Shown here: in pieces, positions 16,230-60,060 of the stretch | Numbering within the stretch: position 1 is the first letter of the stretch | How the letters are laid out: each line of letters starts with the position of its first letter | Assembly: GCF_030823405.1 (NCBI RefSeq) | Contig: NZ_JAUSXC010000001.1 | Span: 3,765,001 to 3,829,000 of the forward strand | Length of the DNA stretch: 64,000 nt | Reading direction: 5' to 3' | Source: Chryseobacterium ginsenosidimutans | GTDB taxonomy: Bacteria; Bacteroidota; Bacteroidia; Flavobacteriales; Weeksellaceae | Notes under the pieces: generated by a model | Seen by the model: only the letters and a program-made list of their open reading frames with translations | The model's database searches: none | What the model was told of the DNA's origin: nothing | Position numbers and translations under genes: made by a program

Positions 16230-16389
16230 TTTTACAGATATATTTCTTGCCGTAAAACTATCGCGACTTTTAATTTGAAAAGTTCATTTCTGTTGAGATG
16301 AACATATTTGCGGCATTTGAACTTTTATACCGATGAATATCAAGTACTTAAAATCAATTAATTATTTATTAACAAATAAAAACTTAAGA

Positions 16390-42068: not shown

Positions 42069-43094
42069 TTATTTTACCGGATATTTTTGTATTAAGGCCT
42101 GTAATATTGAGAATGTTTCCGCATCCATAATTCCGTCATAATTTTGTGGGCGGAAGTGATACTGGAAAGCTTCGATTGTTTTCTTTGTGGCATCGTCCCA
42201 TTTTCCGCTGAGATCCAACCCGTAACCGAATTTTTGCAATTGGGTCTGAACATTGAAAATAAATGAAGGATCATTATATTTAATCTGAAAATCTGTGGAT
42301 GTTTCCAAATCATAGAAGCCTTGTTTGATTGTCTCATCGTACCACATACCGATTTGATATTCGTCATATAATTTTTTCCAAGGAAATAGCGGTCCCGGAT
42401 CTTGCTTTCTTGCTGGAGCAATATCCGAATGTGCAAGAATATTGGTTGCGGGAATATTGTATCTTGCTGCAATATCTTTTACCAAAGCTGCCACTTTTTT
42501 CACCTGGGCATCATCAAAAGCCACGAAAGTTCTTTTCCCTGTTGCATCAGCTGTGAAACCCATATTTACAATCTCAATTCCTATGGAAGTATCGTTAAGA
42601 TTTTTATCTGATCTCCAAGAGCTTACTCCGGCATGATAAGCGCGTTTGTTTTCATCAACCAACTGATAAATCTCGTTATTTCCTGTATTGTTAACCAAAT
42701 AATGAGCACTCACGGCTTGCTGTGTTAAAACTGTAATTGATTTATCATCTGCCAAAGCTGTATAATGCAGGATCAGGTATCGCTGTCTAAAATTTTGTGC
42801 CACAGCAGGGAAATAGGTTTTTACAACCTTGTAACCTGCCGGTTTAGCAGAAACTATAGAACCATAACTTGCCGTATTATCGTTCTTTGTTGGATCTGCT
42901 ATGTTAGTAGTAAAAAACTCTACTCCATGCTCAGATGTAACTTGTGGTTTCGGCTTTTCAGAAGTTGTTTTTGCAGCTGTTTTTGGCTGTACCACAGGAG
43001 TTCTGGGGATGTATTGTTTTTTCTTAGCATTTTGTTGAGAAGTACACGAAAAAACGAGTGTACTTAATCCGATGATATATAATGTCTTACGCAT
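42069..43094 (-). CDS. N-acetylmuramoyl-L-alanine amidase with peptidoglycan-binding domain (lipoprotein)
   Basis: A 341-residue cell wall hydrolase. The lipobox (LVFSCTS, Cys17) predicts a lipoprotein. An amidase_2 domain follows (about 100-260) with the Zn ligands visible in ILHYTALADD and AHSDIAPARKQDPG and the VSAHYLVNNTGN and IGIEIVNMG blocks. A C-terminal peptidoglycan-binding type 1 domain (about 285-338) starts near VQTQLQKFGYGLD. It cuts the amide bond between MurNAc and the stem peptide, most like AmiD, and probably serves in recycling. It is the last gene before the tRNA cluster. Confidence 0.9.
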   Translation of the reverse strand: MRKTLYIIGLSTLVFSCTSQQNAKKKQYIPRTPVVQPKTAAKTTSEKPKPQVTSEHGVEFFTTNIADPTKNDNTASYGSIVSAKPAGYKVVKTYFPAVAQNFRQRYLILHYTALADDKSITVLTQQAVSAHYLVNNTGNNEIYQLVDENKRAYHAGVSSWRSDKNLNDTSIGIEIVNMGFTADATGKRTFVAFDDAQVKKVAALVKDIAARYNIPATNILAHSDIAPARKQDPGPLFPWKKLYDEYQIGMWYDETIKQGFYDLETSTDFQIKYNDPSFIFNVQTQLQKFGYGLDLSGKWDDATKKTIEAFQYHFRPQNYDGIMDAETFSILQALIQKYPVK

Positions 43095-43153
43095 TTATTT
43101 GTTTTTTTATTAGTTTATAAGCTCAAAAATACACAAATTTTTCTTGAAAAATA

Positions 43154-43185
43154 TTTGGTAAATAAAGAAATGTATTCTATATTTG
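43154..43185 (+). promoter_or_regulatory. Promoter of the tRNA-Ser-Pro-Arg cluster
   Basis: TTTG at 43154-43157 and TATATTTG at 43178-43185 are spaced by 20 bases, a close match to the Bacteroidota consensus TTTG-N19/20-TAnnTTTG. It lies 46 bases upstream of tRNA-Ser. Confidence 0.8.
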
Positions 43186-43231
43186 CACTCGCAATAACGG
43201 AACAACGATCATTCGAAATAACGTTATAGCA

Positions 43232-43318
43232 GGAGAGTTGCCTGAGAGGCCGAAAGGACATGTTTGCTAAACATGCGTACTGGTAACGGTACCAAGGGTT
43301 CGAATCCCTTACTCTCCG
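43232..43318 (+). tRNA. tRNA-Ser (GCT)
   Basis: An 87-nt class II tRNA. The acceptor stem is GGAGAGT/ACTCTCC, the anticodon loop TTTGCTAAA gives GCT (AGC/AGU codons), there is a long variable arm, and the T-arm is GGTTCGAATCC. The CCA is not encoded. Confidence 0.95.
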
Positions 43319-43332
43319 CAGCAAAATTAATT

Positions 43333-43407
43333 CGGGGCGTAGCGTAGTCCGGTCATCGCGCCTGGTTTGGGACCAGGAGGTCGCAGGTTCGAATCCTGCC
43401 GCCCCGA
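43333..43407 (+). tRNA. tRNA-Pro (TGG), copy 1
   Basis: A 75-nt tRNA with acceptor CGGGGCG/CGCCCCG and discriminator A. The anticodon stem CTGGT/ACCAG encloses TTGGG with anticodon TGG. An identical copy lies at 58661-58735. Confidence 0.95.
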
Positions 43408-43439
43408 CTGTTTTGATAATTTTCTCAAAATTACACAAT

Positions 43440-43513
43440 GGGTGCGTAGCTCAGCTGGATAGAGCATCTGCCTTCTAAGCAGACGGTCAAAGGTTCGAAT
43501 CCTTTCGCGCTCA
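43440..43513 (+). tRNA. tRNA-Arg (TCT), copy 1
   Basis: A 74-nt tRNA with acceptor GGGTGCG/CGCGCTC (G-U pairs) and anticodon loop CTTCTAA giving TCT (AGA/AGG). An identical copy lies at 58768-58841. A serine recombinase gene ends 335 bases beyond it, suggesting that the locus is an insertion hot spot. Confidence 0.95.
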
Positions 43514-43516
43514 CTT

Positions 43517-43552
43517 AATGAGACAACTTTTTAAAAGTTGTCTCATTTTTTA
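43517..43552 (+). terminator. Terminator of the first tRNA cluster
   Basis: AATGAGACAACTTTT and its perfect complement, then TTTTTT, directly after tRNA-Arg copy 1. Confidence 0.9.
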
Positions 43553-43702
43553 TACCCATAAAAATCTGTGGCCCAATCTTTTACAATTGGGATATTTAGA
43601 GTTCGATTTTTGAAGCTAGAATTCCTCTATTATTTGTTTGAAATTATCTAGAAGAGCCTCAATATATTTCCTATAGGACTTTTTCGCAAATTCGAAATCT
43701 CC

Positions 43703-43864
43703 TTAAGGATATAGTGTCTTTTTTTCTGGTTTTTTGTAATTTTTTGAGATAAGATAAAGCAAGTCCAATATAACTGCTATTTCTTCATCATCTACTTTAA
43801 TGCCATTTTTTGCTAATAGGGCAATTGCCTGTTCAATTGATATTTTTTTATAAGTGAAATTCAT
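43703..43864 (-). CDS. Small conserved protein downstream of recombinase
   Basis: A 53-residue protein (MNFTYKKISIEQAIALLAKN, then VDDEEIAVILDLLYLISKNYKK). I recall near-identical small proteins in Flavobacteriia placed directly after serine recombinases. Its ATG lies within the last codons of the recombinase gene (overlap 17 bases), which suggests translational coupling and perhaps a recombination directionality or accessory role; this is inference. An A/T-rich stretch with possible remnant codons follows the stop toward the tRNA cluster. No known domain. Confidence 0.55.
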   Translation of the reverse strand: MNFTYKKISIEQAIALLAKNGIKVDDEEIAVILDLLYLISKNYKKPEKKTLYP

Positions 43865-45336
43865 TTTTCATATTTTTTCGGTTAGCTTTTTTCGATAGTA
43901 CTTTTAATAATGCATCATTTAGATCTAAAGAAAGGCTCCCTTTTTGGTAGTCAACATCAACAGGAGGAATCAAACTCAGAAGATGTTTTTTATCAGCTGT
44001 ATCAAATTCCGAAAATCCGTGAAAAAGATCCAAAAATAATTTGCCTTCCAATTGTTCCTGCTTATCAATATCTCTTAATTTAGTATTGATATTACGTAAC
44101 TCTTTTTTTAAGCATTGAGAATTAACCTGGTTCTCTTTTTTAATTCATTGTAATCATCCAGTTTCAAATCCTTGCTACAAATAGCTTTCTAGCTTGGGAA
44201 AGAGTTAATCCTTCTTCTTTCAATTTCCGCTCTGCTAACATCCGTTCATGTAAATAATTTGTTTTCTGTGTTTTCATATTCTGATCTTCTAAAATACTGT
44301 TGAATAATTCGGCTGCATTATTTGATAATATTAGTTCTTGAAGTTTATTCTGATAACATTCATTGAGAAGAATTGCATTTATTCTTGTCTTACATCGCCC
44401 ATGACAGTGATAGTAGGGATATTTTTTGGTGTTGCCTTTAGAAAAGCTTCCACTAAGTTTTTGATTACAATGGGGACATATTAAGAATCCTCTTAGAAAA
44501 AATGTTGCTTTTAGAGTATCTGCTTTAGCAGTAACTTGTCTTTTTGTTGTAATAATACGCTGCACGTCATAAAACTGACTTTCAGAAATTAATGCCTCAT
44601 GCATTCCTTTAACCATTTGTTGTTCTTCGGCGCTAATATTTACTGGTATAAGACCACAATAAACCGGATTACGTATCAATCTGAAAAAATGCGATCGTGA
44701 GCATATCAAACCTTTATCTGTCGCCATTTTTCTAATCTCTTCTATCTTATGAATATTTTTTGAAAGTTGATGAAATACCCATTTTATAATTTCTGCTTCC
44801 GGTTGTTTAGGTGTAATTATTTTTTTACCATCTAACAGTGTCAGATTAATAAATCCTAATGGAGCCTTATTAGTATACCTACCCATTAGTTTCGCCCGAC
44901 GAATGCCATTTGCTGTATTCTGGGCTCTCCTACTGTTTTCAGCTTCTGGTACAGAAAGGTACACAGCAAGCATAACTGTACTTTCCGGAACTGAAAAATC
45001 TACAGGCTGATCAATAGCCATTGCTGTTGTTTTGTATTTCCGAAGCTTTCCTATCATTTCATAGGCATACTCAACATTACGACTGAATCGATCCCATTTA
45101 ATAAATAATATATTAGCTTCTTCCTTAGGTGATTTATACTTAATTGTTGTGAATAGGCTTTTCCATTCAGGCCGATTGAAATTCTTAGCTGAGAAGTCTT
45201 CACGATAAATCCCCTTGACTTCAATATTGTTATATTTACAATATTTTAATAACCTGTCCTCTTGCTCGGGTAAGGAGTACCCTTTTCTTTTTTGCTCGTC
45301 TGTACTTACACGGACGTATAAATAGGCTGTTTTCAT
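43848..45336 (-). pseudogene. Large serine recombinase, C-terminal frameshifts
   Basis: A large serine recombinase that once had about 490 residues. The first 390 are intact (44164-45336): the resolvase domain with catalytic Ser11 in YVRVSTDEQ, RFSRNVEYAYEMIGKL and AIDQPVDFSVPES, the recombinase domain (APLGFINLTLLDGK) and the zinc-ribbon (FLICPHCNQKLSGS with CHGRCKTR). After LFVARI the frame is lost; one frame gives KDLKLDDYNELKK and the third resumes with ENQVNSQCLKKELRN and ends FHGFSEFDTADKKHLLSLI, stop at 43848. Two single-base slips thus remove the coiled-coil/C-terminal segment. It probably integrated the island to its right. Whether the truncated form still works is open. Confidence 0.85.
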
Positions 45337-45769
45337 ATGAATAATGTTATTTAATCTACTACAACAAGATTAGTATTTTTAAACACATGGAAATGAAAAA
45401 CGAAAATAGTTTACGCGATATTAAATAAAAAAGCAAATTCGGCAGAAAGATTAGTATCATTTAGAATTTGACTACACACTAACCATTGTACATTTAACCC
45501 TCTTGATAAATTGATGGAAGTTGTTGAGGAAAACAAAAGTCTTTATGAGCGGTTGCTAGCAAGTGAGCGTGAAAGATAGAATTATTGAAAGGCAGAAGCA
45601 CCGAAAATTAACTTTTTAACGGCATTAATAATTTAGCTTGTAACATTTTACCTTTACTGAAAGAATATATTCTTTTAGCCGTATCGGAAAATTTGCGTTT
45701 CCTTACGCTTTTGGGTAACTGATTTTTTGAATTCTGACAATTATAGTCAACTGAGCGACCGACATGCAA
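45337..45769. other. Intergenic stretch with regulator remnant
   Basis: At about 45511-45578 the plus strand encodes LMEVVEENKSLYERLLASER and a stop, the usual tail of small phage-type helix-turn-helix repressors in Flavobacteriia; the DNA-binding part is gone. The rest shows no gene. Confidence 0.4.
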
Positions 45770-46243
45770 TTACTTTTTTAAATACTTTACAGAAATACCC
45801 AGCTGGCCCATATGGTACAAGTCGTGATGGATAAGCCCCTGCAAGAAATACCGAAAGTCTTTCCCATAATCGGCTGAAATGGTATCGAGATAGGTATCAT
45901 CTTTACCGTTCAGGATGTAGATAATCTCCTGCTTGCTTTGGTACAATTCTTTTTTAAGCGTTTCCCACCCGGCGGGACGCAATTCATCGTTGGTTTTCCA
46001 ATTGGAAGGATCACCAGTTTCAGCCGAACCACTGCACCCTGCAAGCGGCCCATAACTGCTCTGTGCCAAACAATAAGATGTGAGATCAATTCTGCAGGAC
46101 TGCAGATCATCAAGCGGCGGCGTAAACGCATCCGTTTCATTGATCTTTTCAAATTTCTTTGCAAAAGTTTCATCTAGCCACACATCTCCATCATGCAGAT
46201 CATTAAGTTGCTTTGTAATATCTTCGATTAGGATTGTTGCCAT
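45770..46243 (-). CDS. DinB-like protein with internally shifted segment
   Basis: A 157-residue member of the DinB/YfiT-like four-helix bundle family. The N-terminus (LNDLHDGDVWLDETFAKKF) and the C-terminal helix (LIHHDLYHMGQLGISVKYL, with the metal-site His) are typical. Residues about 48-68 are not: in the normal place the family has a helix with a metal-binding His, and that helix (PAELISHLIVWHRAVMGRLQG) is encoded here in another frame at the same place. Two compensating indels have therefore replaced it by unrelated residues while keeping the gene open. The metal site probably has lost one His, so the product may be inactive. Function of the family: diverse thiol- or stress-related enzymes. 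Confidence 0.72.
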   Translation of the reverse strand: MATILIEDITKQLNDLHDGDVWLDETFAKKFEKINETDAFTPPLDDLQSCRIDLTSYCLAQSSYGPLAGCSGSAETGDPSNWKTNDELRPAGWETLKKELYQSKQEIIYILNGKDDTYLDTISADYGKDFRYFLQGLIHHDLYHMGQLGISVKYLKK

Positions 46244-46779
46244 AATTTTCTTGTTTTCAGTTTATAAATTACGAAAATTTCTGGATAGTAAATGGTATTC
46301 AGCAAGCTTTCGTTAAGAAAATAAATTACATGCCCTTACTGTTTTCCGTAAGCCATCATTTCATTATATCGCTATTTTTGAAAGGGTATTTTGATCAGAA
46401 ATAATATTTTATTAGAGCTTATAAATTACTTTGAAATTTCATCTGTGGTTGCGAATTAATTATTAAATTGCACTAACTAATAATACTCTCAACATGAAAA
46501 AACCAAGTATACTACCCTATTTAATTCAATAACCTGTTTTACTAAAATATTTGATGCGTTGCACTTTAATTTCAAGGGGCAATTATACATTATACCAATT
46601 TTATTTAGTAGGATTTTGTGTTAAATTCCTGTTATGAAATTTCTTAACCCTCCTCAAATTGACATATTGGTCAGCTGTTTTAAGAATATCATAGCTTTTA
46701 AATATCAATGGGACCATATCTATCTAAAAAAAATATAGATGAATAATATTCAATTATTTACAATTATAAAAAACCTAAA
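46244..46779. other. Long spacer upstream of the MBL/RT/polymerase operon
   Basis: A 536-base AT-rich spacer between the divergent DinB-like gene and the operon. I see no open frame. Because it directly precedes a defence-type reverse transcriptase operon it is the best place to look for a template or guide RNA, but I found no strong hairpin, only a weak ATCTAT/ATAGAT inverted repeat near 46719-46741. Confidence 0.4.
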
Positions 46780-47772
46780 ATGAGTATTAAATTTTTAAAA
46801 GCCGGGACAGGTGATGCTGTATTGATTCAGCATGGAGGTAAAAATATACTTATAGATGGTGGTAATGAATTTAAGTATCTTCGAGATCAGGTCAAAGCCA
46901 TAAATGATTTGAATGAAAAAATTGACTTGTTGATTATTACTCATCATGATGATGATCATATCGCGGGAGTTATATCACTATTAACAATGATAAAAAACGA
47001 AGAATTACCAAGTGATTTTGTATCAGAGGTATTCTTTAACTCGCCTAGAAAGATAAAAGGCAAAATTTCAGACACAACTGCAAATCACCTATCTTATAAG
47101 CAGGCCTACGAGACTGAAGAACTAATTCTTGAGTTAGGCGTCAAATGGGAATTGATAACCGAAAACTCAAATGACGTTAAAATTGGAGAAATCAATTTGA
47201 ATTTTCTTTCTCCTATGCAAGATGATTTGGAAAACTACAGTGAGAAAAAAGGAGCATATCTGACAGGAGATTTTAGATGTGATTGGGATGTTCCAATAAC
47301 AGACATTGAAAAATACATTGATGATGCTAGTCAGGATAAGTCTCTATCAAATAAAACCAGTATAATAATTCTAGCAGAGTTCGATAGTAAAAGATTCTTA
47401 CTTACCGGAGATTGTACTCCCGACAGATTCGAGGCAGCTTTAGATAAAATTGACAAGAATGAAAGCGGTCAAGCCGAATTTTACGCTGTTAAATTACCAC
47501 ATCACGGTAGTTATCGAAGCCTAAACCAAGCAATTATAAAATCTATCAAATGTAGCCGCTTTATTATCAGTACAAATAGCAAAAAATATTTTTTACCAAA
47601 TAAAAGAGCTTTATTAAAAGTGAAAAATTATGCTTTGGATAAAACTGCTCGGATTGAATTTTTTTTCAACTATGAAGAGGCTCTAAATGCACTAAAAATT
47701 ACCGCTGTAGAAAAGACCAGATACAGTTTGATCTTAACTCCAAATAATAAATCTTATGGCATTAGTCTCTGA
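46780..47772 (+). CDS. ComEC/Rec2-type metallo-beta-lactamase-fold hydrolase
   Basis: A 330-residue soluble MBL-fold protein of the type found at the C-terminus of ComEC. The metal motif is HHDDDH (55-60, in LIITHHDDDHIAGV), with DGG (about 26-28) before it, LTGDC (208-212) and KLPHHGSYRS (238-247) after it. It lacks the membrane channel of ComEC. MBL proteins of this kind recur beside protease and STAND genes in several prokaryotic defence systems (for example the MBL subunit of some Avs1 loci), where they act on nucleic acid or nucleotides. Its last 17 bases overlap the start of the protease-RT gene, so all three genes are read as one operon. Its substrate is unknown; nuclease or phosphodiesterase activity is inference. 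Confidence 0.88.
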   Translation: MSIKFLKAGTGDAVLIQHGGKNILIDGGNEFKYLRDQVKAINDLNEKIDLLIITHHDDDHIAGVISLLTMIKNEELPSDFVSEVFFNSPRKIKGKISDTTANHLSYKQAYETEELILELGVKWELITENSNDVKIGEINLNFLSPMQDDLENYSEKKGAYLTGDFRCDWDVPITDIEKYIDDASQDKSLSNKTSIIILAEFDSKRFLLTGDCTPDRFEAALDKIDKNESGQAEFYAVKLPHHGSYRSLNQAIIKSIKCSRFIISTNSKKYFLPNKRALLKVKNYALDKTARIEFFFNYEEALNALKITAVEKTRYSLILTPNNKSYGISL

Positions 47773-50149
47773 TAATTTAAAAAATTGTGGCATTCGAATT
47801 AATGCAAAAGTATGTGGAGTTAATGTAATTGGTTCAGGTGTTTTATATACGACGCCTGATGATGTAACATATAACTATGTGCTTACTGCAAAGCATTTAT
47901 TTCAGGAAGATTCTCAAACACCATACGATGAAAATAAAGTAGGAATCATTGAGATATTTTGTTACGTAGAAGATCAATTTCAGCAATTAGATTTAATCAA
48001 AAAGGCCTCAATAAGTGATAAATTAATTGAGTTCGATGCAGATTTCGTAGTACTCATAGTACAAAAGGACGCTAGATATAAATTTCGTAATTTCTTAGTT
48101 TCAGATTCTGTTGCAGATGGTGACGAGGAATTCTTTTCGTGGGGAGTTTTTGCCGCACTCACTGACGAACTCAGTCTTTTTAATCTCGATCGTAATGATC
48201 ATGCCGCAAAACGATTTAAAATGCATGGCAACTACAAGCCAGATTTTTTACCTGGAATGTCTGGCGGTGGAATTTTCTTTAAAAACAAAAGTGTTCTTTA
48301 TGGCGTGATTTCGAGATATCCAACGGAAGAGTTTCAAAATGAAACTATTGATTGCTCGAAAATTTCCTTTGAAACTGTTAACAGCATCCTTAGGTTACGT
48401 GGTCTGAAAGAAATTGATACAGTGGCAACACCATATAAGCGCGAAATTGAAAATAATGTTGTTGATATTCACCAGACATTCATTAACGGGACCTTTCTTG
48501 ATCTAGAGCAAGCACGTAAGCGTTTATCTTCGGATATTCATGATGATTGGTTTCATGATCCGTTACGATATGTAGATTTGCTTAAACAGGGTTATTTATT
48601 TGATCAACTTGCCCCTTTCATGGCGGACAGGGTATATAAAGCACAAGAGGCAGAGCATTTTTATGTTCCGAAAAAAAAATTCACCTTACGCTTGGCGATG
48701 ATATCACCATTTATAGATCGAATAATGTATATGGCCGCAGTAGGTGTTATTGCTGAAAAACTAGATTCAGCAATGATATCAAATGTTTATTCAGCAAGAT
48801 ATAGTCGCTTTTCAGAAAAGAGTTTGATTTTAAATGGAGTTGAGCAGTGGAAAAAAATGCAATATCAGCTATGGCAAACTGCGAACAAAAAAGACTGTTC
48901 TGACAGATACATATATAAATGTGTTATCGAGATTGACCTACTTAATTTCTACGATAATATTAGCAAAAAACTTTTACATGAAAAGGTGCTACGCGTATGT
49001 GATACTGAAAATGAGCGAAATGCAGCTATGCTACTTAGGGATATACTGAGGCAAATGAGTGACAAAGATGTGGGATTACCTCAAAACAGTGACGCATCTT
49101 CTTTATTAGCTTCATTCTATTTAAACCAAGTAGATATCTTTATGCAGCACCATGCACCAGAATATTATCGTTTCATGGATGATATTAGAATATTATGTAA
49201 AGACAAATTTGAAGCCCGTAAGATCCTGCAGACTTTTGAATTCGAACTCCGAAGATGCTATCTTTCAGTTAATTCACAAAAAACACAGATCATCACAATT
49301 GTGGATGATGCCAATAAAAAGCTTAAAGCAGGGCAGCAACGCAGAGATTATTTTGAAACATCATTTGATATAAATATGGCGCGAATATCAAGATATAGAA
49401 TCTCTCAAAAGCGTCAGTATAGAAACGAAGCATTTCATGCAGCTATAAAGCTCTTAAAAGAGAATATTGGTGTAGACAATAATGATGATGCTTCAAAAAA
49501 GGTAAATTATGGATTTAATACTATAAATTATTTAGCAATCAAGGGCGTAAGACTCGACAGATCGACCCCTGATTTTTACGAGCAAGTGATCAAGGCAACA
49601 AAGAATCTAATCAATAAGCCCTGGTTGACCACCGAAGTATGCAAAGTTCTAAACCTCTTGTCAACTGATGATTTCGAAAGGGATATTTTACCTGACATTA
49701 AAAATTTTGTCACAAAGACAAAATACAACACGTATGCATTTCAAAGTTATCAGTTATGGTTACTACTAGCGAAGCATAAATGCAATGATGAGCATTTAAA
49801 ATCTTATGCAGTCAAGCAGATTGAAAAAAATGATGACACTAGTACTGCTAGTATTGCGGGAATGATTATTTACATGTGTGCAGTAAATAAAGATTATCGG
49901 CGAGTCATCCTCCGGAAGTTAGGACAAAAATTTACTCATGGCTATTTTCAAAATCGCATTGCTTTGGTGTCATTGCGAAACTTCCGTACTGATCTTATTA
50001 ATGACAGCTGTTTGATCAATGAAACTCTTACACAAGCTCATTCCTATAGCTATGAATTTAAAGATAAAGATCTCGTTTTTGTGCGTGGTTTTGATGAATA
50101 TATGAATAGCGAGGACGATAATCCTGAAGAACAAAAATATTCCATATGA
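47756..50149 (+). CDS. Trypsin-like protease fused to reverse transcriptase (Abi/UG-like)
   Basis: A 797-residue two-domain protein. Residues about 1-220 form a trypsin-like protease with the whole triad visible: H47 in LTAKHLF, an Asp in FDADFVVLIV (D94 or D96) and S169 in LPGMSGGGIFF. Residues about 260-530 are a reverse transcriptase: motif A CVIEIDLLNFYDNI (D394), motif B VGLPQNSDASSLLASFYL, motif C YYRFMDDIRIL (D475, D476) and motif E SVNSQKTQ. The last 250 residues are helical and look like the HEAT-like repeats of Abi/UG-type defence RTs. There is no group II intron maturase domain or signature, and no CRISPR array. Its ATGA overlap with the polymerase gene indicates tight coupling. 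Confidence 0.88.
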   Translation: MALVSDNLKNCGIRINAKVCGVNVIGSGVLYTTPDDVTYNYVLTAKHLFQEDSQTPYDENKVGIIEIFCYVEDQFQQLDLIKKASISDKLIEFDADFVVLIVQKDARYKFRNFLVSDSVADGDEEFFSWGVFAALTDELSLFNLDRNDHAAKRFKMHGNYKPDFLPGMSGGGIFFKNKSVLYGVISRYPTEEFQNETIDCSKISFETVNSILRLRGLKEIDTVATPYKREIENNVVDIHQTFINGTFLDLEQARKRLSSDIHDDWFHDPLRYVDLLKQGYLFDQLAPFMADRVYKAQEAEHFYVPKKKFTLRLAMISPFIDRIMYMAAVGVIAEKLDSAMISNVYSARYSRFSEKSLILNGVEQWKKMQYQLWQTANKKDCSDRYIYKCVIEIDLLNFYDNISKKLLHEKVLRVCDTENERNAAMLLRDILRQMSDKDVGLPQNSDASSLLASFYLNQVDIFMQHHAPEYYRFMDDIRILCKDKFEARKILQTFEFELRRCYLSVNSQKTQIITIVDDANKKLKAGQQRRDYFETSFDINMARISRYRISQKRQYRNEAFHAAIKLLKENIGVDNNDDASKKVNYGFNTINYLAIKGVRLDRSTPDFYEQVIKATKNLINKPWLTTEVCKVLNLLSTDDFERDILPDIKNFVTKTKYNTYAFQSYQLWLLLAKHKCNDEHLKSYAVKQIEKNDDTSTASIAGMIIYMCAVNKDYRRVILRKLGQKFTHGYFQNRIALVSLRNFRTDLINDSCLINETLTQAHSYSYEFKDKDLVFVRGFDEYMNSEDDNPEEQKYSI

Positions 50150-51591
50150 TCTCAAAAAAAATAGCAGTTCTAAATGCAGGGGACTTTTGGTATGGTATTG
50201 ATATAGCGAATCCTGATAAATTAATTGAAAATGTTAGAATTGCAGGTAGTGTGACATTAATTACTTCGCAAACAGCAGATTTAGTAAGATTTATTAAATC
50301 AGAAAAAATGAGATTTACAACTATCAATATTATTGACCTAGAATGTCTGGATAAACAAATGTCACAAGCTGGAAAGGATGTGCATGCAATCAAAAAATGG
50401 CACTTATTAGTTAGGCTTAAATATCACAAATTTCTAGCTAACGATTTTCGTCTGACGGATTTAACACTGTTAGAGTGTTTGCAAGGTATGGCCAAATTTT
50501 ATGAAAATCTAATAAGTAAAGACACTGACGAGACAAATCGGTTTGATTGTATTGAATCGCAAATCAATAAAATAATTTACCGCCGCCAGTTTTTAGGTGT
50601 TCCAATTGATTCTGCTATCGCTAAGCAATTATGCTCCGAATTGGACGCCCAGATTTATATGGTTAAAAACGTGCTTCAGCGAAAATATAATATTTTTGAG
50701 CCTGATAATGAACAGCAGCAAATAGCGTATCTAATTTCAAAAAAGTATCAAATATTAAGATCTCCATTATTTACATTCAAAGCAAGACGTAACCACGATG
50801 ACGGCTGCAAACATTTTTATGATATGCTGCGAAATCAGCGGGATTTGGACAGCTTATTATTTATGCTTTCGCATTGGGGTGGTGAAAATAAAGCAATACC
50901 AACCTATTACGGCTTCGGCACTATTACTTCTCGCATTACAGTGAGGGAGCCAGGTATTCAAAATTTACGGAAGGGTAATCGAAAAGTAATTGTAGCTGAT
51001 AGTGGCTTTAAATTGCTTTATATTGACTACTCACAATTTGAGGCAGGGATTTTAGCCGCCCTTAGCAATGACGCTACTTTACTAAAACTCTATGATTCAG
51101 ACATATATAGTGATCTTGCATTATCACTGTTTAATGATGCAACAAAGAGATCTGACGCCAAAGTTATTTTCTATAGGTATATGTATGGCGACACCTCATT
51201 AAATGGTGCGAGTAAAGCCTATTTTAAAAAATTCAAGGGCTTGGAAAACTTTCGAAAATCTATCGAAGATGAAATTAATAAAAATCATCGTATAGGTACA
51301 AACGAGGGTAATTACCGCATTGCTACTGAGGGAAATTGCGGTTGGGCATTAAGTCATTTAATTCAGTCAACGGCTTCTTTAATTTATAAGCGAGCTCTAA
51401 TCAGAGTATCCGCCGAGGTAAATGCAGCTAAATTCCTAGTGCCAATGCATGACGGAACCCTTTACCAGATTCCGGAATATCTTTATGAAGCTACCGTGAA
51501 GAAGATAGAATTGATTTATAAAATAGAATTTGAAAAAGAATGTCCAGGTATTATTGCAAGAGTTAATTGTTCGGATAAATTTTATGAGTGA
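50146..51591 (+). CDS. Short family A DNA polymerase with altered motif C
   Basis: A 481-residue PolA-like polymerase. Visible are the FGTITSRITVREPGIQNL block (TGRLSS-like), motif A LLYIDYSQFEAGILAALS (D294), an O-helix-like SDAKVIFYRYMYG (K339 to G348), RIATEGNCGWALSHLIQSTA (equivalent of the RxxxNxPIQG helix) and motif C VPMHDGTLYQIP (H435, D436). The Glu normally after that Asp is Gly, and the O-helix lacks the usual phenylalanine-glycine pair. No 5' nuclease is present, and the first 140 residues show no 3'-5' exonuclease DxE motif. Both metal-binding Asp are kept, so catalysis remains possible. It overlaps the protease-RT gene by four bases and probably acts on the DNA that the RT makes. 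Confidence 0.85.
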   Translation: MISKKIAVLNAGDFWYGIDIANPDKLIENVRIAGSVTLITSQTADLVRFIKSEKMRFTTINIIDLECLDKQMSQAGKDVHAIKKWHLLVRLKYHKFLANDFRLTDLTLLECLQGMAKFYENLISKDTDETNRFDCIESQINKIIYRRQFLGVPIDSAIAKQLCSELDAQIYMVKNVLQRKYNIFEPDNEQQQIAYLISKKYQILRSPLFTFKARRNHDDGCKHFYDMLRNQRDLDSLLFMLSHWGGENKAIPTYYGFGTITSRITVREPGIQNLRKGNRKVIVADSGFKLLYIDYSQFEAGILAALSNDATLLKLYDSDIYSDLALSLFNDATKRSDAKVIFYRYMYGDTSLNGASKAYFKKFKGLENFRKSIEDEINKNHRIGTNEGNYRIATEGNCGWALSHLIQSTASLIYKRALIRVSAEVNAAKFLVPMHDGTLYQIPEYLYEATVKKIELIYKIEFEKECPGIIARVNCSDKFYE

Positions 51592-51601
51592 CAGTTAAAC
51601 C

Positions 51602-51850
51602 ATGAACTACGAAAAAGCGCTTTCCTTCTACAAAAACGACAAAGCCATGCAGCCGTTGCGGGCAGAGCACTTTCCGCTGCTGCTGAGCTTCCTCCATCTT
51701 GTATTTAAACATCCGAGCAGGATTGTGTACCTCCAAAACGTTTTGCAAAGCGTTATGAGTAATTATCTTTTTCTCTCCTATTTGTATGATGTTAACGAAA
51801 TGCAAAGTTCAGTTATCAGATTAACCAAAGGAATAAGGTATGCTTCATAA
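51602..51850 (+). pseudogene. Truncated JetA-like (DUF3375-type) N-terminal stub
   Basis: An 82-codon frame whose first 60 residues (AMQPLRAEHFPLLLSFLHLVF, then YLQNVLQSVMSNYLFLSYLY) resemble the N-terminal winged-helix part of DUF3375-type Wadjet JetA proteins. After about residue 68 the similarity ends and the frame closes inside the start of the next gene (overlap 11 bases). The first 150 bases are richer in G+C than the surroundings. It may be a scar of an earlier Wadjet copy joined to the present one, or a frameshifted true N-terminus of the following JetA. I lean to the first, because the next gene starts well on its own. Confidence 0.45.
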
Positions 51851-53198
51851 AGATCTGTACACCAAATATGAGCTACTTCTTCCCCCAAAACTTGATGGGG
51901 GCTATTTGGTTATTGTTCTTTATGAAAAAATTAAAAACCGTGAAATCGAGGAATACTTCACCCAAAAAGAAATCAATGACATCCTTTCAGATATCAAATT
52001 TGAATTCAACCTGGAAAACATTCGTCCATGGAACAATATTAAAGATCAGCTCTTTCACTATTTCCTGCGTAACATCCCCGATGAGCCATGGAAGTATTAT
52101 CTAACGGAGTATGCAAAAGATGTAGTAGGTTTGATGATAGGCAAATTAGAAAATTCTCACAAAGACCTTCCGCTCAAAAAAAGTATCCAAGATTCCTTTA
52201 CCATACGATATGGAGAAATCGAAACTATTGACGAACTGGAAAGAAAATTCGGAAGGATATTTATTCAGGGTTCAAAAAAAATTATAATTGATCATCTCGA
52301 AGCTTTAGAAGATGAATTGCGGGGGGCTTACAAAGCGTTAAACGATATTCTTAGGAAGGAAGACGAGCAGAGTGCTACTTCTTTAGTACGGGATTTTACT
52401 ATTATTTTTAAAAAATTTGGACAAAGAGCAGAGGATATTACGGAAGCGATCATTTTTAAAGACCAATTTCTTAGTAGTTTACTTTCGGTAGTTGACCATT
52501 TTTACAGAAAACTGGAAGACGATGGAAAGTTTAGTCCTAATGATGTTCAAAAAAGCAGAGCTGACTGGGAAAAAGCGCAGGACATTTATACAGACATCAG
52601 AAATTTTTTCAATTCGGTAGACCTCAAAGTACATATTATACGGAGGCAGATTAACCATGCCAGTGAAAAATTAACTGAATTGCAGGAGCAGTTTTCTGTC
52701 CGCGCCTCCTTCAGGCTGCAACTCAAAAAATTACACCGTACCATGTTGGAAATATCTGAATACACTTCAGATGGTGTTCGATTTAGAAATAATTTTTCGC
52801 TCAAACAATTCGTGTATGAGCCTTTGCGAATGTTTTATGCAAGGTATTACGAATTTGAGCAGCCACAACCCAATTACATTGTAAGCATTGAGGCAGATGA
52901 AAGGTATGAGCGTATTGAGAAGGATAAGATAGAAAAAGAAATCAGCCGGCAGCAAATCATCAATCAATGGGTAGACAAAGCCAAAAATATGCTTGAAGAC
53001 AGAGGACAACTGGCGGTAGATGAGCTGATGAATATGGTTTTGAATACTGAAAAAGATTTATCTGTCGCATACCAGGTAGCTTCCCGCATGATCGCATACG
53101 TATCTGAAAATAATGAGGTAAGCATAGATATAGAACAAAAAATCATTTCCTTACCTCAACAAAATCTATCCCTATGGAAAACGAAAATTATGAAATAA
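51840..53198 (+). CDS. jetA: Wadjet JetA-like kleisin subunit
   Basis: A 452-residue, mainly helical protein in the first position of a JetABCD-type SMC operon. It has an N-terminal winged-helix-like part (YFTQKEINDILSDIKFEFNL to YYLTEYAKDVVGLMIGKLEN, about 35-105), a long helical middle and a C-terminal wing-like part (about 375-445, RGQLAVDELMNMVLNTEKDL), as expected for the MukF-like kleisin that bridges the SMC heads. The gene is intact. It overlaps jetB by 25 bases. Wadjet systems cleave small circular DNA such as plasmids; the other three subunits here are broken, so the system is probably inactive. Confidence 0.7.
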   Translation: MLHKDLYTKYELLLPPKLDGGYLVIVLYEKIKNREIEEYFTQKEINDILSDIKFEFNLENIRPWNNIKDQLFHYFLRNIPDEPWKYYLTEYAKDVVGLMIGKLENSHKDLPLKKSIQDSFTIRYGEIETIDELERKFGRIFIQGSKKIIIDHLEALEDELRGAYKALNDILRKEDEQSATSLVRDFTIIFKKFGQRAEDITEAIIFKDQFLSSLLSVVDHFYRKLEDDGKFSPNDVQKSRADWEKAQDIYTDIRNFFNSVDLKVHIIRRQINHASEKLTELQEQFSVRASFRLQLKKLHRTMLEISEYTSDGVRFRNNFSLKQFVYEPLRMFYARYYEFEQPQPNYIVSIEADERYERIEKDKIEKEISRQQIINQWVDKAKNMLEDRGQLAVDELMNMVLNTEKDLSVAYQVASRMIAYVSENNEVSIDIEQKIISLPQQNLSLWKTKIMK

Positions 53199-53848
53199 GC
53201 GATTATTCTTTCCTGGCTGAAGAAGCAATTGAAAAACATTTTGCGGACATCAACATATTATTGTTGTCGGGCAAGCATATCGATCAAAAGTATTATGTAC
53301 CCTATACGGTACTGGAAAGTTATGAAGCACAATGGAAAATTTTTTACAGGAACTTGTACAGGCTCAACCTCGTGGCTGATATTTTTGATCGAAGCAGATA
53401 TTATTATCTGGATTTTACAGAAAACGAGAAGGGAAAATTAAACGATTCCAGCCGCAATAGAGAACTTACTCCATTGCAAACACTCGTTGGATTAACGCTT
53501 CTGGATATGTATTATCAAAGGTATTTTGATGAAGAAAAGATTATACACTGGAACGATATCAAAATACAAATATTAGAAAGCGATCACCAGGAAGCATATA
53601 AAAGGATTTTACTTAATGACATTCGGGAATCTTATGATGAAAAAGAGTGGAGCGAGGTTCACGGAAAATTTAGCAAAACCATAGATAATTTTGATAAATT
53701 GGGTTGGGTCGAAAAATAATCAGGTAAAAGTGAAGAACTGGTTTTCGAAATACGTCCTGCCATTCACCGTTTAGCCAAATTGTATAATCAGGAACTTCAG
53801 AATTTTGAGGCCTTTAGTCAGCAACTTAGAAACGACGATCCGCTATGA
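53174..53848 (+). pseudogene. jetB: Wadjet JetB-like KITE subunit with in-frame TAA
   Basis: A 224-codon gene for a DUF4194-type KITE protein, the second subunit of a JetABCD complex (WKIFYRNLYRLNLVADIFDRSR, LTPLQTLVGLTLLDMYY, WNDIKIQIL). A single TAA at 53717-53719 interrupts it after WVEK. The reading frame then continues without any shift as SGKSEELVFEIRPAIHRLAK and ends exactly in the ATGA overlap with jetC (53845-53848). The substitution therefore removes the last 43 residues, the second winged helix. This is a nonsense mutation rather than a natural gene end. Confidence 0.75.
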
Positions 53849-56800
53849 ATTATCCGAGAATTTATTCCTTATCAACAGTTGGTATCCTTAAGCATTTCAA
53901 ACATGATTATCTTTTTCATCCTATAAGAACTGATTTCATTGGCTCGAATGGTGTTGGAAAATCCATCATAGCGGATCTACTTCAGATGATTTTTGTATAT
54001 GATAAAGACCTGATTAAATTCGGCACAGATGGGGTAAAAACCGAAGATCGGCTGATTAACACACTTCCCTATCAGACGAAATGGGCCTATTGCTTTTTGA
54101 ATATTGAAGCCGATCCTGGTCAGTTCATCACTATTGGAATACAAATCAACAGCCAAAAAGGAAGGCGTATTATTCCATTTGTAATAACCAGGCAGGCAGA
54201 TATTAACGTAGATATAAGCGATCTGACCCTTAAGAAACAAGATTTACTTTTTGCGAAAATTTGTTAAAAGTAAATGAAAAGAATGAAGAAATACTGGACT
54301 TAAAGGATTTGGCCATATTTCTTCACGAAAAGCATCAGCTTCGATTAAATTATTTCAGTAATAATGAAGAGGTCAGCAAGTATTACAAATTTCTTTATGA
54401 CAAAAAGATATTGCCGCTCAACCTCAGCCAGGATAAAAACTTAAAAGCCTTTGCCAAGGTGATCCAGTCTTTTTCCAAAGCTAAGACTCTCAATCTAAGT
54501 GGTAATCAGGCTTCTAAAAACCTAAAGGAGTTTCTCTTTGAAGAATCTGATGAAGATATTTTATCAAACTTTCAAAAAGAACAGGCTGAACTTGAAAAGA
54601 TATTGCGTGAATATGAAAGGTTAGATAAAGACATTCAAAATTTGTCCAACAAGCAAAAAATGTTAACCAACTTACGAGAGTTGGAACAATCTCACAAAGT
54701 AAAATTTAAATCTTTTAAAGAAGCTGAATTACAAAACACCTATATAGAACTAAAGCAATTAGAAAGAAAAGAATCAGAAGGAAAGACGCTAATAAAGATC
54801 CGAGAAACTGAATTTAATGAGCTAAAAGCAGTTATTGAAAATCTTCCAGCAGAAGAAGAAGAAGTAATACAAAAAAGTTACGATGAAGCAGATGCAAACT
54901 TTAATATGTTCAACCATTATCAAGACTTGTCCAACAGTGTAGAAAAGTTGAGTAAAGATATCAACGACCTTAAAATGTTTATTCGTCCTGAAGTAGATGA
55001 TAGTTGGTTAAATGAGATACAGAGAATTGATATTTTAAGCAGAAACAATGAAGATATTAAAAGAGAAATTACTTTTACGAAACCTTATCTGGAAAAGTAT
55101 AAAACACTTGAAAATATTGTCCGAATCAGAAAAGTGCAATTGGAGATTTTGGATGAATTAAAATCTTCATTAAAAAATGATAAAACAACTAAAGAAAGAC
55201 TATTAGGGCTATTGCAAGACAACGATGAGAATGGACTTTTAAACTGGTATATTAAGAATCTACCGCTGTTGGGTCATGAACAATTACAGACGGTTTTGTA
55301 TTATGCAACCAAACCTATTTCTGAGATGTCTAATCCTAACGATTCATCTCAATATATCAATCCTGATGAGCTGATTAATAATTTTAAAGCAACCCCATCT
55401 GAAGATGGTTTTTGGTTAAAACTGGGTGCACTACATCAATTTATACAATTTAATCCACATGTAATGCTATTAGAAGACAGAACAAATCTGGAAAAATCTT
55501 TAAGACAACTAATTCAAAAGTTGAGCACTGAAATCAGTTCCATAAATACCAAGCTAGAAGCATTACAGAATATCTCAGATGGAAAGCTTTACGATGTAAA
55601 TCTATTTGACTATTCCTTTGATATCTCTATTGCTGTTTTTAGCAATATTGAAAAATTGAAAAATGCAGTAGCCTGTATCTTACAGATTGATGAAAAGACC
55701 TCACAATTGCAATCGTTAAAGAAAAGAGAGGAAGAAGAACTATTGGAAATCAAAAGCCAGTTTAAGGTTGTATGATGAGCCTGAAGTCGTAAAAAAGGAG
55801 TTGTTAAAAGTTCGCAAAGAATGGAGCGATAAGAAAAATAAGTTTTATGAACAAAAAGGAGTTAAGCAAACAAAGCTTGGAACTCTGGAAAGCAATATAC
55901 AGCGTGATAACAAGGATCTACAAGTAATTATTGTTGATCTAACAAATAAGCAAACGACATTTAATACGCTTAATAGTATCTATTATAATCATTTCCAAGA
56001 AAACGTAGACGTCTTTCCATTGGCATTTCAGAACGAAGAAGAACTAGAGCACATCTATAATGAGTTGTGGGAAGAATATAAAACAGTATTTATTGGCATT
56101 TCTAATTCATTTGAGGAAACGAGTAATCAGAAAAATCCAGCAATAGAATTAACGATAAAAGACCAGAGTTTTTCATTCAGGGTTTTGGAAGAAGCATTAT
56201 TGGGAAATAGGATTAAATCTACGGATGATATTGCCACCGCTTTGAATGAAGCTAATCAAACTCGGAATACTATCGCTAATGGTATCAGAGATAATATGTT
56301 TAAAATATTTAGTAAGACCACCGAACGGTACGAAAAGTATGAAAGCCAGATCAAAAGGATCAATACGTTTTTTGTTGATCGTAAAATCAGCAATAAATTT
56401 TATTTCAACCTTAAATTTGAGCCGAATAAAGAAATAAAGATCGATTACATCCGGCAAATGGCGTATGAAGTGAGAAACACAGCGACGAAGGGAGAATTAC
56501 AATTCGGACAATCTATTGTTGATTTTATAGAGGAATTTTTCAAAAAGCAGGCGAAAATTAAAAATTCAGTGCCAATTGACAAACTGCTAAATCCCAAAAC
56601 GTATTTTGAACTGTCTGCCAAACTTACCGATCAGTTTGGAACAGAAATACCAGGAAGTACAGGAGAAACCTACTCTGCTATTGCGCTCCTGGGTATCGCA
56701 AGACTATCAGCTGTACAAAAGGAAAAACGTGATGGCTTGCGATTTATTATTTTAGAAGAATTAGGAAGTCTGGATAACACCAATTTCAATACTTTTCCTG

Positions 56801-57015
56801 CGATCGCAAAAGAATTTCAGTACCAAATTATCACGATGGCCCCTCATACCTTCAATATTGGACTGTCTGACGAATGGTATGCCCATCACTTGATTAAAGG
56901 AAATAAAAATGATAACATCAACTATTATCCTTCGGCTTCATATTTTAAAACCAATGATAATAACGAAGATCTGAATATTTACATAAACCAATTAGAGAGA
57001 GATGAATTGGATTGA
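53845..57015 (+). pseudogene. jetC: Wadjet JetC-like SMC ATPase, two frameshifts
   Basis: An SMC-type ATPase of about 1055 codons spread over three frames (53845-54267, 54261-55775, 55768-57015). Walker A is at residues 33-40 (GSNGVGKS). Long coiled-coil arms follow (Glu/Lys/Leu-rich, for example EKEQAELEKILREYERLDKDIQ-like stretches). The C-terminal head has GSTGETYSAIALLGIARLS (signature-like) and FIILEELGSLDNTNF in the Walker B place, with Glu-Glu instead of Asp-Glu. The slips are at about 54260 (LLFAK / NLLKVNEK) and 55768 (SQFK / RLYDEPEVV). Apart from these it is well preserved, so decay is recent or the indels are assembly errors. Confidence 0.78.
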
Positions 57016-57931
57016 ATTGAGAGCATTAAATAGTTTATATAAGACTGGTGAAGTAAAACTAAATGAAACTTTAAAACAAAGTGGTGAAATCAATTATTTG
57101 ATCAATTCATTAAGCGTGCTTGACCGGTCGCATACAACCCTATTCGTTTTAGAAGGCTTTGATAAAATATACGAAAAAGATTATCTGGAAAAATATAATC
57201 AATATATTACTTTCCTAACTGAAAATAATCTTCTAAAGCCTTGGATCCGCTTCGACGAAAAAGATATTAAAATACTTATAAGCATAAAAGAGGATATGGA
57301 TAATGGTAATCTGGAACCCTTGCGCGAACAGATTATAAAAAATGAAGCCACTGTCAGAATTGTATCGCTTATGTTTTTCAAAAATGAAAAGTATTTATTG
57401 TGAAAAGACGCCTTGATCAATGCTGTAAAAATACTTTTAGACATTGAAGAATTAGCTGATGATAAAGATTTGCAATACAAATATGTGCTGGAATGTCACC
57501 ATCCAAAATGCATCGTATTGTGTGAAAATATTGATTTTTTAAAGCGTCCTACTTTGGCCCGGGCAAATCATATCGAACTTTGGTATGCCGGTGGTAAAAA
57601 CATTACTAAACTTGATTATGCCGATACCAGAGGCTTGCCCATTTATTATTCGTGTGACTGGGATTATGATGGGCTATTTATTATTTATCCTTTGGTAAAA
57701 AACAAAATACCAAATATTACACTGCTTACTCCAAACGCCGCCCCAAAAACAATTAAAGAGACAGAGCATCTTAGTAGATGGGAAAATATTAAAGATAAAA
57801 ACATTGACTTGCTACTAACTGATGCGCAAAAAATCATTTTAAATGATTTGATTCAACGTGATGAATGGATAATTGAGGAAGCTAACTTACTATTAGATAT
57901 GGTAGCAGATAAAACGTCTACGCTTATATAG
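57002..57931 (+). pseudogene. jetD: Wadjet JetD-like Toprim nuclease with in-frame TGA
   Basis: A 309-codon gene for the nuclease subunit of a JetABCD system. The C-terminal Toprim part is clear: KCIVLCENIDFLKRP carries the metal-binding Glu and YYSCDWDYDGLFIIYPL the DxD. The N-terminal 130 residues are helical and should be the SMC-binding arm. An in-frame TGA at 57401-57403 splits it (EKYLL / KDALINAVKI) with no change of frame, leaving 133 codons before and 172 after it. It overlaps jetC by 14 bases. A terminator follows 90 bases on. Confidence 0.75.
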
Positions 57932-58020
57932 GTTATTTAAATTATTTTTATTGCGGTTGAATTCTGCAAATTAATTGTAAATCATTAATAAAATAGTTCG
58001 AAGATAATCCTGTTGGGATC

Positions 58021-58058
58021 ACAAAAAACCTCATAACAAAAGTTATGAGGTTTTTTGT
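58021..58058 (+). terminator. Terminator of the Wadjet-like operon
   Basis: ACAAAAAACCTCATAAC and its perfect 17-bp complement enclose a four-base loop, followed by a T run. The symmetry makes it usable from both strands. Confidence 0.9.
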
Positions 58059-58607
58059 TTTATAGCTAATTATTATTTTGAGAATATCTTAAAGTCACCC
58101 TTCACCTTCAAATTATACACTTCCACATTAATTTATAATTCAACGATATAAGTACATAAAGTATGCTTAATTATTTAGTTTCCCAACCAAAAGCGCTGGA
58201 AACATACGTGTTTTCAAAAATACTTTGTGTTAGAAAACGATCCTGACTTTCCATCTGCTTATCTTTTTTATGAATAAGCACTTTTATTAATTCTCCTTTA
58301 TGATGATATCCATGCAAAATAATCGTATTAACGCCTTGTAAATCTATGATTTTTACAAATTCAACAAACCTATCAATTGGATTAAACCATCTAGAAAATT
58401 AAAGTTAAAATCTAAAAATCTATAGTCTTCTCAACAACTACTTGAGTCAAATTCATCAAACAACTATGTCCTGAAAAATTTTCAAATAATTTATCTATTA
58501 AAATAGGATCGGTTTCAATTATATTATGTAAAGTTAGTAAAAAACTATTCTAAAAAAAATAATGAAAAATTATTCCAAATTTATTTTCATAATTCAAAAA
58601 AAGACTA

Positions 58608-58615
58608 TATATTTG
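58608..58615 (+). promoter_or_regulatory. -7 box of the second tRNA pair
   Basis: TATATTTG followed by GCACC, as at the first cluster (TATATTTGCACTC), 45 bases before tRNA-Pro copy 2. No good -33 TTTG is seen at the right distance. Confidence 0.6.
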
Positions 58616-58660
58616 CACCCACAAAAAACAAGGTAATTCTTGTTAAAAGATGACCTTAAT

Positions 58661-58735
58661 CGGGGCGTAGCGTAGTCCGGTCATCGCGCCTGGTTTGGGA
58701 CCAGGAGGTCGCAGGTTCGAATCCTGCCGCCCCGA
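58661..58735 (+). tRNA. tRNA-Pro (TGG), copy 2
   Basis: Identical over 75 nt to the copy at 43333-43407, with anticodon TGG. It is preceded by its own promoter-like box. Confidence 0.95.
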
Positions 58736-58767
58736 CTGTTTTAATAGTTTTCTCAAAATTATTTAAT

Positions 58768-58841
58768 GGGTGCGTAGCTCAGCTGGATAGAGCATCTGCC
58801 TTCTAAGCAGACGGTCAAAGGTTCGAATCCTTTCGCGCTCA
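58768..58841 (+). tRNA. tRNA-Arg (TCT), copy 2
   Basis: Identical over 74 nt to the copy at 43440-43513, with anticodon TCT. The 32-base spacer to tRNA-Pro has the same length as at the first locus but differs at about five positions. Confidence 0.95.
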
Positions 58842-58844
58842 CAC

Positions 58845-58885
58845 AACCGACATTTGAATTTTCAACGATTTGATGTCGGTTTTTC
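58845..58885 (+). terminator. Terminator of the second tRNA pair
   Basis: AACCGACAT / ATGTCGGTT stem with a 19-base loop, followed by TTTTCT, just after tRNA-Arg copy 2. Confidence 0.8.
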
Positions 58886-60060
58886 TATTCCCTAAAGCGT
58901 TGTTAGAAGATACACCTTGCATTCTAGTTCATTTCATCAATTCGAAACTCTGTTCCGGGGAACTCAATTTTGGGATATATCGAACTCGCGATCTTTCTTT
59001 TTTATTTCTATATCGCCCTCTATGTAAACTTTGACACTTTTTTAAATAGCATTTAAAGCATTATCGAGCTTTGTTTGAATATCAATGGCTTTTGTTTCAG
59101 AAATTATAAAGCTAAGTTCCTCTTCCAGTTTGTCACTCTCCGATTTTCCATTGGTCTTTATTTCCCTATAATCATCCTCGTCCAGCTTATCAGCAAGGTA
59201 CATTTCCTAGCTTTCGATATCCTTTCATTGATTGAGGCTATCTGTCTGGATACCGCTTCCTTTTCTCGTCGAGGCTGCCCGTTAATGATCTGTAATTATC
59301 AACCAGAAGCTTTTTCAAAATATTCCTCAGAACCGGTTTGAACTCGAATTTGGAAAGTCCCCTCACAAATAAATCATTAACTATATGAGAATGACATCTA
59401 AACCCACACCTTGAACTACAATGGTAATAGATTTTTGAATGTCCCTTGAACCACCGCCCGTCAAATTGTTTCCACATCTCGGGCAGGTCAATATTCCCCT
59501 TAAGGGAAAATGTTCGTTGTTCAAAATCTCCTTCGAGTCTTACCTCTTTCTTTTTGCCATCCAACACATCCTGAACCTTGTAAAAAGTATCTCACTGATC
59601 AATGGCTCGTACTTTCCCTGAATATAACAACCCTGCTTATACTTCACTAATATAGATCCTACACAGTATACCATATTCTTCAAAGCGGTTATAAAGGTAT
59701 TCCGGGTAATGTTCCTACCTTCTCTTTTGTTCATTAGAGTTCTTACATGATCAGCCGGGAGATGCCCTTTGCTATTTCGTTAAATGTCCAAATCATATTG
59801 GTAGCCTCAGGCTCTTTGACCGCAATATATTTTCTGCTGTCCTCAATGCTGCTATTGATATACCCATATGGAGGTGTCCCCATTATTCTTTCTTCTTTTT
59901 TTGTCTTTCTCATTCCATGGAAGACATTTAACGTTGTCGACTTCAGGTGAGGCCAAATAAATTGCCAGCACAAGCTTATTTTCCGGGACAGCCATATCCA
60001 GTGGCTGCTCTATAGCTTGAGGATTTACTCTAGCCTAGCAAACTTATCAGAATAGATATG
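58886..60060 (-). pseudogene. Second serine recombinase, heavily decayed
   Basis: Pieces of a large serine recombinase in several minus-strand frames. From 5' to 3': QAIEQPLDMAVPENKLVLAIYL and the following SLNVFHGMRKTKKEERIMGT-like block, PPYGYINSSIEDSRKYIAVK, then a zinc-ribbon-like GRWFKGHSKIYYHCSSRCGF (one Cys pair lost to mutation, as it reads DLPEMWKQF instead of CPxCG), then LADKLDEDDYREIKTNGKSE and a tail VKVYIEGDIEIKKK. The N-terminal resolvase domain is missing and stops occur throughout. It ends next to tRNA-Arg copy 2, as the first recombinase does next to copy 1, and it is not a close relative of that one. Confidence 0.8.

Follow-up and report, generated by a model that had tools for sequence, protein, structure and literature searches.

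A three-gene plus-strand operon lies in a 64,000-nucleotide stretch of the Chryseobacterium ginsenosidimutans genome (contig NZ_JAUSXC010000001.1, positions 3,765,001 to 3,829,000; hereafter the window), a genome assembled as one contig of 4,296,724 bases. It encodes an enzyme of the metallo-β-lactamase (MBL) fold, a trypsin-like protease fused to a reverse transcriptase (RT), and a family A DNA polymerase (PolA). Judged by profile matches, these are the catalogued components of a UG9-type defense-associated reverse transcriptase (DRT) system. We tentatively favor a reading in which the operon defends against phage by protein-primed DNA synthesis, conversion of the product to duplex DNA, activation of the protease, and opening of the MBL nuclease. 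The original prediction for this DNA was correct in the overlaps of 17 bases (MBL/protease-RT) and 4 bases (protease-RT/PolA) and in the parts, their order, and their likely defense role, and sequence comparison finds the active sites of all three genes intact. Its proposal of a candidate new system did not survive, since existing DRT models cover every gene and both the UG9-polA linkage and the MBL-protease pair are in print.

All three proteins match dedicated DRT-component models of the profile database PADLOC-DB 2.0.0 (2023; Table 1), and the RT_UG9_large match (PDLC03785, 1031.5 bits) is full length, covering protein residues 1 to 797 and positions 1 to 772 of a 772-position model. A family of UG9 DRT with RTasMBL and RTasPolA was reportedly set out by Mestre in 2022. 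According to a 2021 survey, 94% of UG9 RTs in complete genomes have a member of the polA-like family PRK14975 nearby (PMC8934634), and a 2025 paper names DRT among the hosts of the MBL-trypsin pair (PMC12799240). Because of these models and printed associations, the composition of the set is not new, and the window proteins show no measurable difference from the PADLOC-DB UG9 DRT with RTasMBL and RTasPolA. We found no experimental study of UG9 in the literature searched, coverage of which was incomplete: the founding UG/Abi paper lay outside it, and a trypsin-MBL study (reference 28 of PMC12799240) may cover DRT. Nor did the same literature yield a printed explanation for the second, family A polymerase of UG9.

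The set also recurs. A search covering a single genome of each species returned 20 loci with relatives of the window RT. Searches with tblastn placed an MBL gene just upstream in 19 of the 20, that is, at all 19 loci where this side is visible (the contig of L022 begins inside the RT gene), and a PolA gene just downstream in 20/20. Prior description as a named set, which the original prediction gave as refuting it, largely holds. MBL and RT overlap by 11 to 26 bases in those 19 loci, with 17 the most frequent value, and RT and PolA are spaced by −4 to +5 bases in 19 of the 20. The exception, L017, has frame breaks in both RT and PolA; L020 has one in PolA. The loci are partly nonindependent: L007 and L008 are identical over 14.1 kb, L010 (from Pedobacter soli) and L011 are 99.6% identical over 17.5 kb, and L003 lies on the contig of L016. 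L007 and L008 are on two scaffolds of one Pedobacter assembly, with the UG9 operon inside the identical stretch and a second identical segment of 2.1 kb following at a different distance, reflecting either a recent duplication or an assembly artifact. Among genomes of the window's kin, UG9_large occurs in 3 of 98 (the host genome included), and a copy of the operon is present in G014, a genome of the same genus. A second, divergent group of protease-bearing UG9 loci comprises L002/L029 and P0237, and the L002 proteins are 28 to 30% identical to those of the window. Carriage by viruses was considered and rejected, as neither source gave a relative: none of 29 pattern stretches from a scan of viral contigs was one, and phage records gave no match at E values up to 1e-20.

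In the mechanism that we favor, phage infection would start or stabilize DNA synthesis by the RT on residue S796, and PolA would copy this first strand into a second to give duplex DNA. RTs linked to DNA would then assemble and bring their protease domains together, the protease would cut the gates of the MBL, and the opened nuclease would degrade DNA, with abortive infection as the outcome. The order of steps, S796 as primer, the lack of an RNA template, second-strand synthesis by PolA, DNA-driven assembly as the switch, and abortive infection are all parts that we infer. The division of labor between RT and PolA, already suggested in the original prediction, is plausible. Two published systems supply the model for the switch: in Hachiman, forced dimerization turns the protease on (PMC12799240), and in DRT1, DNA primed on protein is linked to assembly and to a fused effector, with DNA adducts driving assembly (PMC13275509).

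The predicted primer lies in the C-terminal peptide of the RT. Across 119 protease-bearing RTs (those longer than 770 amino acids, the window's own included, among 120 listed of 209 proteins), a variable acidic linker leads into a conserved C-terminal hexapeptide, [E/D]QLYS[I/L]: the first position is E or D in 117, followed by Q (112), L (111), Y (111), S (118), and I, L, or V (117). In an alignment reaching down to 29% identity, the S796 position is Ser in 60/60 protease-bearing RTs, and the Y795 position holds Tyr (55), Phe (4), or Ile (1); the other invariant hydroxyl residues (Y31, Y41, S169, S448, Y455, and Y470) sit in folded parts. Protease-less UG9_small RTs carry Ser or Tyr within the last two residues in 108/111 and within the last three in 111/111 (111 proteins of 525 to 600 amino acids, from 120 listed of 415 drawn from the 7992 candidates sharing most words; one of 822 amino acids was set apart and 8 shorter ones were dropped). 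C-terminal residues serve as primers in DRT3b (Y666 of 667 residues; PMC13174585), DRT10 (a Ser or Tyr; PMC12632851), and DRT9 (Tyr residues; PMC12483538), whereas DRT1 primes from an internal residue, S402 (PMC13275509). Because the C-terminal Ser is invariant and DRT3b, DRT10, and DRT9 prime from their C termini, S796 is predicted to prime DNA synthesis.

The residue after the serine separates the two kinds of RT, being I/L/V in 117/119 protease-bearing versus 1/111 protease-less proteins. HtrA proteases favor cleavage after aliphatic residues. The protease of a related module is likewise reported to cut after isoleucine in the portion available (PMC12799240), and since the aliphatic end goes with the protease, the tail may also contact the fused protease domain. 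This end counts as one observation, however, because a single branch (SH-aLRT 96) splits protease-bearing from protease-less rows in an unrooted tree of 85 RTs, built by a quick method from 29 protease-bearing and 56 UG9_small rows. The split fits one gain or one loss of the protease; midpoint rooting puts the small protease-bearing group (L002 and P0237) beside the protease-less rows and does not settle the direction. A search for UG21 as an outgroup brought back only the two UG9_small loci. Profile checks of ten UG9-related RTs gave nine UG9_small and one UG9_large.

Protease-less UG9-type RTs were found in 2 of 294 genomes (besides G000) and on two plasmids, both conjugative (two opened among five matching records; the RT of L032 was assigned without a profile scan). 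PolA directly follows the RT in all four of these loci; three of these polymerases were scanned and match RTasPolA, and the fourth matches by tblastn. No MBL was detected at the four loci at E values up to 1 within 11 to 18 kb. On the plasmids, from Dinoroseobacter (L031, 4893-8136) and Paraburkholderia (L032, 4905-8190), the RT and polymerase genes overlap by 8 bases and both RTs end in Tyr-Asp. Because the RT-PolA pair stands without the protease and MBL in 4/4 loci opened, gene content says that RT and PolA form a shared core acting together and that the protease-MBL pair is an effector either added to this core or removable from it. The predicted fold of the window PolA superposes on KlenTaq, and D294, E299, R335, K339, H435, and D436 are kept in 21/21 aligned RT-associated PolAs. 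Two DNA-synthesizing activities in one system and a duplex DNA product, both predicted for the window operon, are features of DRT3 and DRT7. DRT3, however, uses two RTs and an RNA, and DRT7 is an RT-primase-polymerase fusion (as described in a preprint known through a review), whereas the second enzyme in the window belongs to family A.

The MBL is likely a gated pro-nuclease. Besides RTasMBL, it matches LmuA (7.1e-64) and Avs1a (2.4e-29) profiles and is similar to the nuclease domains of ComEC (9ic4, 4.8e-5), and residues H55, D57, D59, H60, D211, and H241 are invariant in 18/18 proteins. By sequence only, it carries insertions near the active site relative to ComEC, the distance between the same aligned blocks being 118 residues (67-185) versus 64 in ComEC 9ic4. 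An alignment to five further MBLs, two of Lamassu, one of AVAST, and two Canu-like, from plasmids (of 36 plasmid records showing a relative of the MBL, 5 were opened), shows common metal motifs and variable inserts falling in the same stretch in all six proteins. The pair of Hachiman and AVAST is described, in the accessible text of PMC12799240, as a protease-activated pro-nuclease in which the partner protease cuts the MBL open, at isoleucines in both insertions. This agrees with the view in the original prediction that the MBL and protease act as regulated effectors. As in that published pair, which also occurs in Lamassu, the MBL gene of the window precedes a gene whose N-terminal fusion partner is a trypsin-fold protease, and the active sites are kept; the window version differs in that the protease is fused to an RT and PolA lies downstream. 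I92 or L104, and L161, are candidate gate residues. The protease half superposes on HtrA/Deg in the predicted model and matches the PADLOC LmuA profile PDLC03855 over residues 5 to 282 (1.1e-25), although direct comparison with two LmuA proteins gave no match. Lamassu itself (an operon of LmuA, LmuC, and the SMC-type LmuB) was considered, as both the MBL and the protease resemble LmuA-filed PADLOC models, and was rejected: the third window gene is PolA, and the adjoining SMC gene belongs to a separate MksE-containing set.

The predicted model of the protease-RT (predicted local distance difference test [pLDDT] score, 87.8; predicted template modeling score, 0.85) joins the RT to a helical (alphaRep) domain, as in class 1-like UG/Abi RTs, and residues 239 to 775 superpose on DRT6 and DRT4. 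Reviews describe both of these as template-free RTs and DRT4 as Tyr primed, in contrast to the Ser predicted here, and neither DRT4 nor DRT6 has a protease, MBL, or PolA. DRT1 shares with the window an RT fused to an enzyme effector, and its serine-primed DNA drives assembly; it differs, in the portion available of that paper, in having a nitrilase effector, the internal primer S402, no PolA, and a place in class 3 (PMC13275509).

Several observations weigh against the favored mechanism. Assignment of the UG9 RT to class 1 (template free) rests on the longer alignment of the predicted model to DRT4 and DRT6, at a root mean square deviation of 5 Å, and the best Z score, 19.5, belongs to a group II intron RT over the RT domain alone, tied with DRT6. 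The class of UG9 is named in no paper that we found, and an older tree, in the portion available, left its place unclear (PMC4244168). The tail (residues 783-797) is unplaced in the model, with pLDDT below 50, and the conserved peptide might be a docking peptide. Polymerase motif C (window positions 51448-51456) reads HD[A/G] in 21/21 RT-associated PolAs where Bacillus Pol I has HDE, so the activity of PolA may be altered, judging from the Ala or Gly after HD. The published cut sites are isoleucines (PMC12799240); of the candidate gates here, the second is Leu in 17/18 and Ile in 1/18, and the first is variable, with I92 being Ile in 12 of 15 main-group MBLs. The weakest step is whether DNA would turn the protease on or off; DRT1 shows both.

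The sign is what the strongest competing explanation reverses. DNA held on the RT would keep the protease dormant, as in a retron-like guard, and damage to or removal of that DNA by phage would free the protease to cut the MBL. In DRT1, DNA adducts are reported to promote a dormant filament in addition to activation (PMC13275509), and the aliphatic C-terminal residue that goes with the protease could serve as a plug; however, that residue reflects one change on the tree, and dimerization activates rather than restrains the Hachiman protease. We consider this reading unlikely. A slightly less likely one is that the joint DNA product of RT and PolA would be toxic or bind phage by itself, as in DRT3 or DRT4, whose products act by themselves, with the protease and MBL adding a second effector or control. 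Protease-less RT-PolA pairs must indeed work without an MBL, if they work at all, but the protease-MBL pair is present at 19/19 testable protease-bearing loci with conserved active sites, and it is therefore under selection there.

Two further readings turn on the C-terminal tail. In the first, which we regard as doubtful, the operon would be a DNA-writing fuse: the RT writes DNA on the serine next to its C terminus, PolA makes it duplex, and the Ile/Leu tail plugs the protease until the start of synthesis unplugs it, whereupon the nuclease gates are cut and cell DNA is destroyed. If true, this would be a two-polymerase immune switch with DNA synthesis itself as the trigger. In the second, quite improbable in our view, the tail would dock PolA or the sliding clamp rather than prime, and RT-PolA would mainly sense or repair replication forks. 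The sliding clamp motif QLxLF resembles QLYSL, and Q, L, and the last aliphatic residue are conserved. But the invariant residue at the fourth place is Ser, not Leu, and L002, P0237, and UG9_small RTs lack QL yet keep the Ser (or Tyr in UG9_small). Finally, it is very improbable that the RT copies a cis-encoded noncoding RNA with PolA converting the cDNA, as in class 2 DRT or retrons: although DRT2, DRT9, and DRT10 use such RNAs (PMC12483538 for DRT9 and PMC12632851 for DRT10, in the portions available), DRT9 aligns over residues 236 to 536 only, the 400-nucleotide flanks on both sides of 14 loci have nothing in common beyond short matches at chance level (relatives being 31 to 61% identical in RT, so a fast-evolving RNA could escape), the 536-nucleotide leader is no more stably folded than shuffled sequences (z = +1.06), and Rfam finds only tRNAs at gathering scores in 43000-59500. 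The favored mechanism assumes an RNA-free RT.

Table 1. Coordinates of the operon, its predicted functional parts, and its setting in the window
Feature	Position	Strand	Basis
MBL-fold gene RTasMBL, likely gated pro-nuclease	46780..47772	+	330 amino acids; PADLOC RTasMBL 3.1e-126
Candidate first gate, residues 90-110 (I92, L104)	47047..47109	+	Insert versus ComEC 9ic4, conservation; putative role
Candidate second gate, residues 150-185 (L161)	47227..47334	+	Insert, conservation; putative role
Protease-RT gene RT_UG9_large	47756..50149	+	797 amino acids; PADLOC profile, predicted model
HtrA-like protease domain, residues 1-217	47756..48406	+	
RT domain, residues 239-536	48470..49363	+	
Helical-repeat domain, residues 537-775	49364..50080	+	
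C-terminal peptide EQKYSI	50129..50146	+	Predicted priming residue S796 (50141-50143)
Family A DNA polymerase gene RTasPolA, KlenTaq-like	50146..51591	+	481 amino acids; PADLOC RTasPolA 5.2e-139
Likely mobile island, tRNA-Pro/tRNA-Arg repeat at both ends	43332..58842	.	Setting of the operon, not part of the mechanism
Serine recombinase inside island	44164-45336	−	

The operon sits in what looks like an integrated island. A 183-nucleotide tRNA-Pro/tRNA-Arg repeat occurs at 43332-43514 and 58660-58842 (178/183 identical), and the approximately 15.3 kb between the copies holds the operon, the serine recombinase, and an MksE-containing gene set. In five relatives the right flank of the island follows another tRNA-Arg in four and begins at a contig end in the fifth; an empty site sought in these five right flanks was not resolved. 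The SMC gene of the neighboring Wadjet-like set (53845-57015) is split into three overlapping open reading frames in different frames, while its counterpart in two relatives of the genus is one frame of 1054 to 1055 amino acids, so the window gene appears either broken or affected by an assembly error. Relatives of the final SMC piece occur in two genomes of the genus that lack UG9_large. Ten neighbors were chosen beside four UG9 loci, and 6 of them match models of defense systems: two form a type I restriction pair, and the others are PDC-M26A, two PDC-M48B, and MkoC. L024, a Chryseobacterium locus, carries beside UG9, at 14068-18173, two more MBL-like genes matching PDC-M48B candidates and a 434-amino-acid protein whose start reads as patatin-like, and an MkoC-like gene adjoins UG9 in L029.

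Only for a few types of defense RT is it known how the DNA product leads to killing. In UG9, the invariant C-terminal serine, the protease-linked aliphatic end, and an effector that can be read by its cleavage would make primer, product, switch, and effector each readable in simple assays. The operon is thus ordinary as a find, being a catalogued system, but its core of an RT and a family A polymerase, its C-terminal serine, and its aliphatic end make it a good case.
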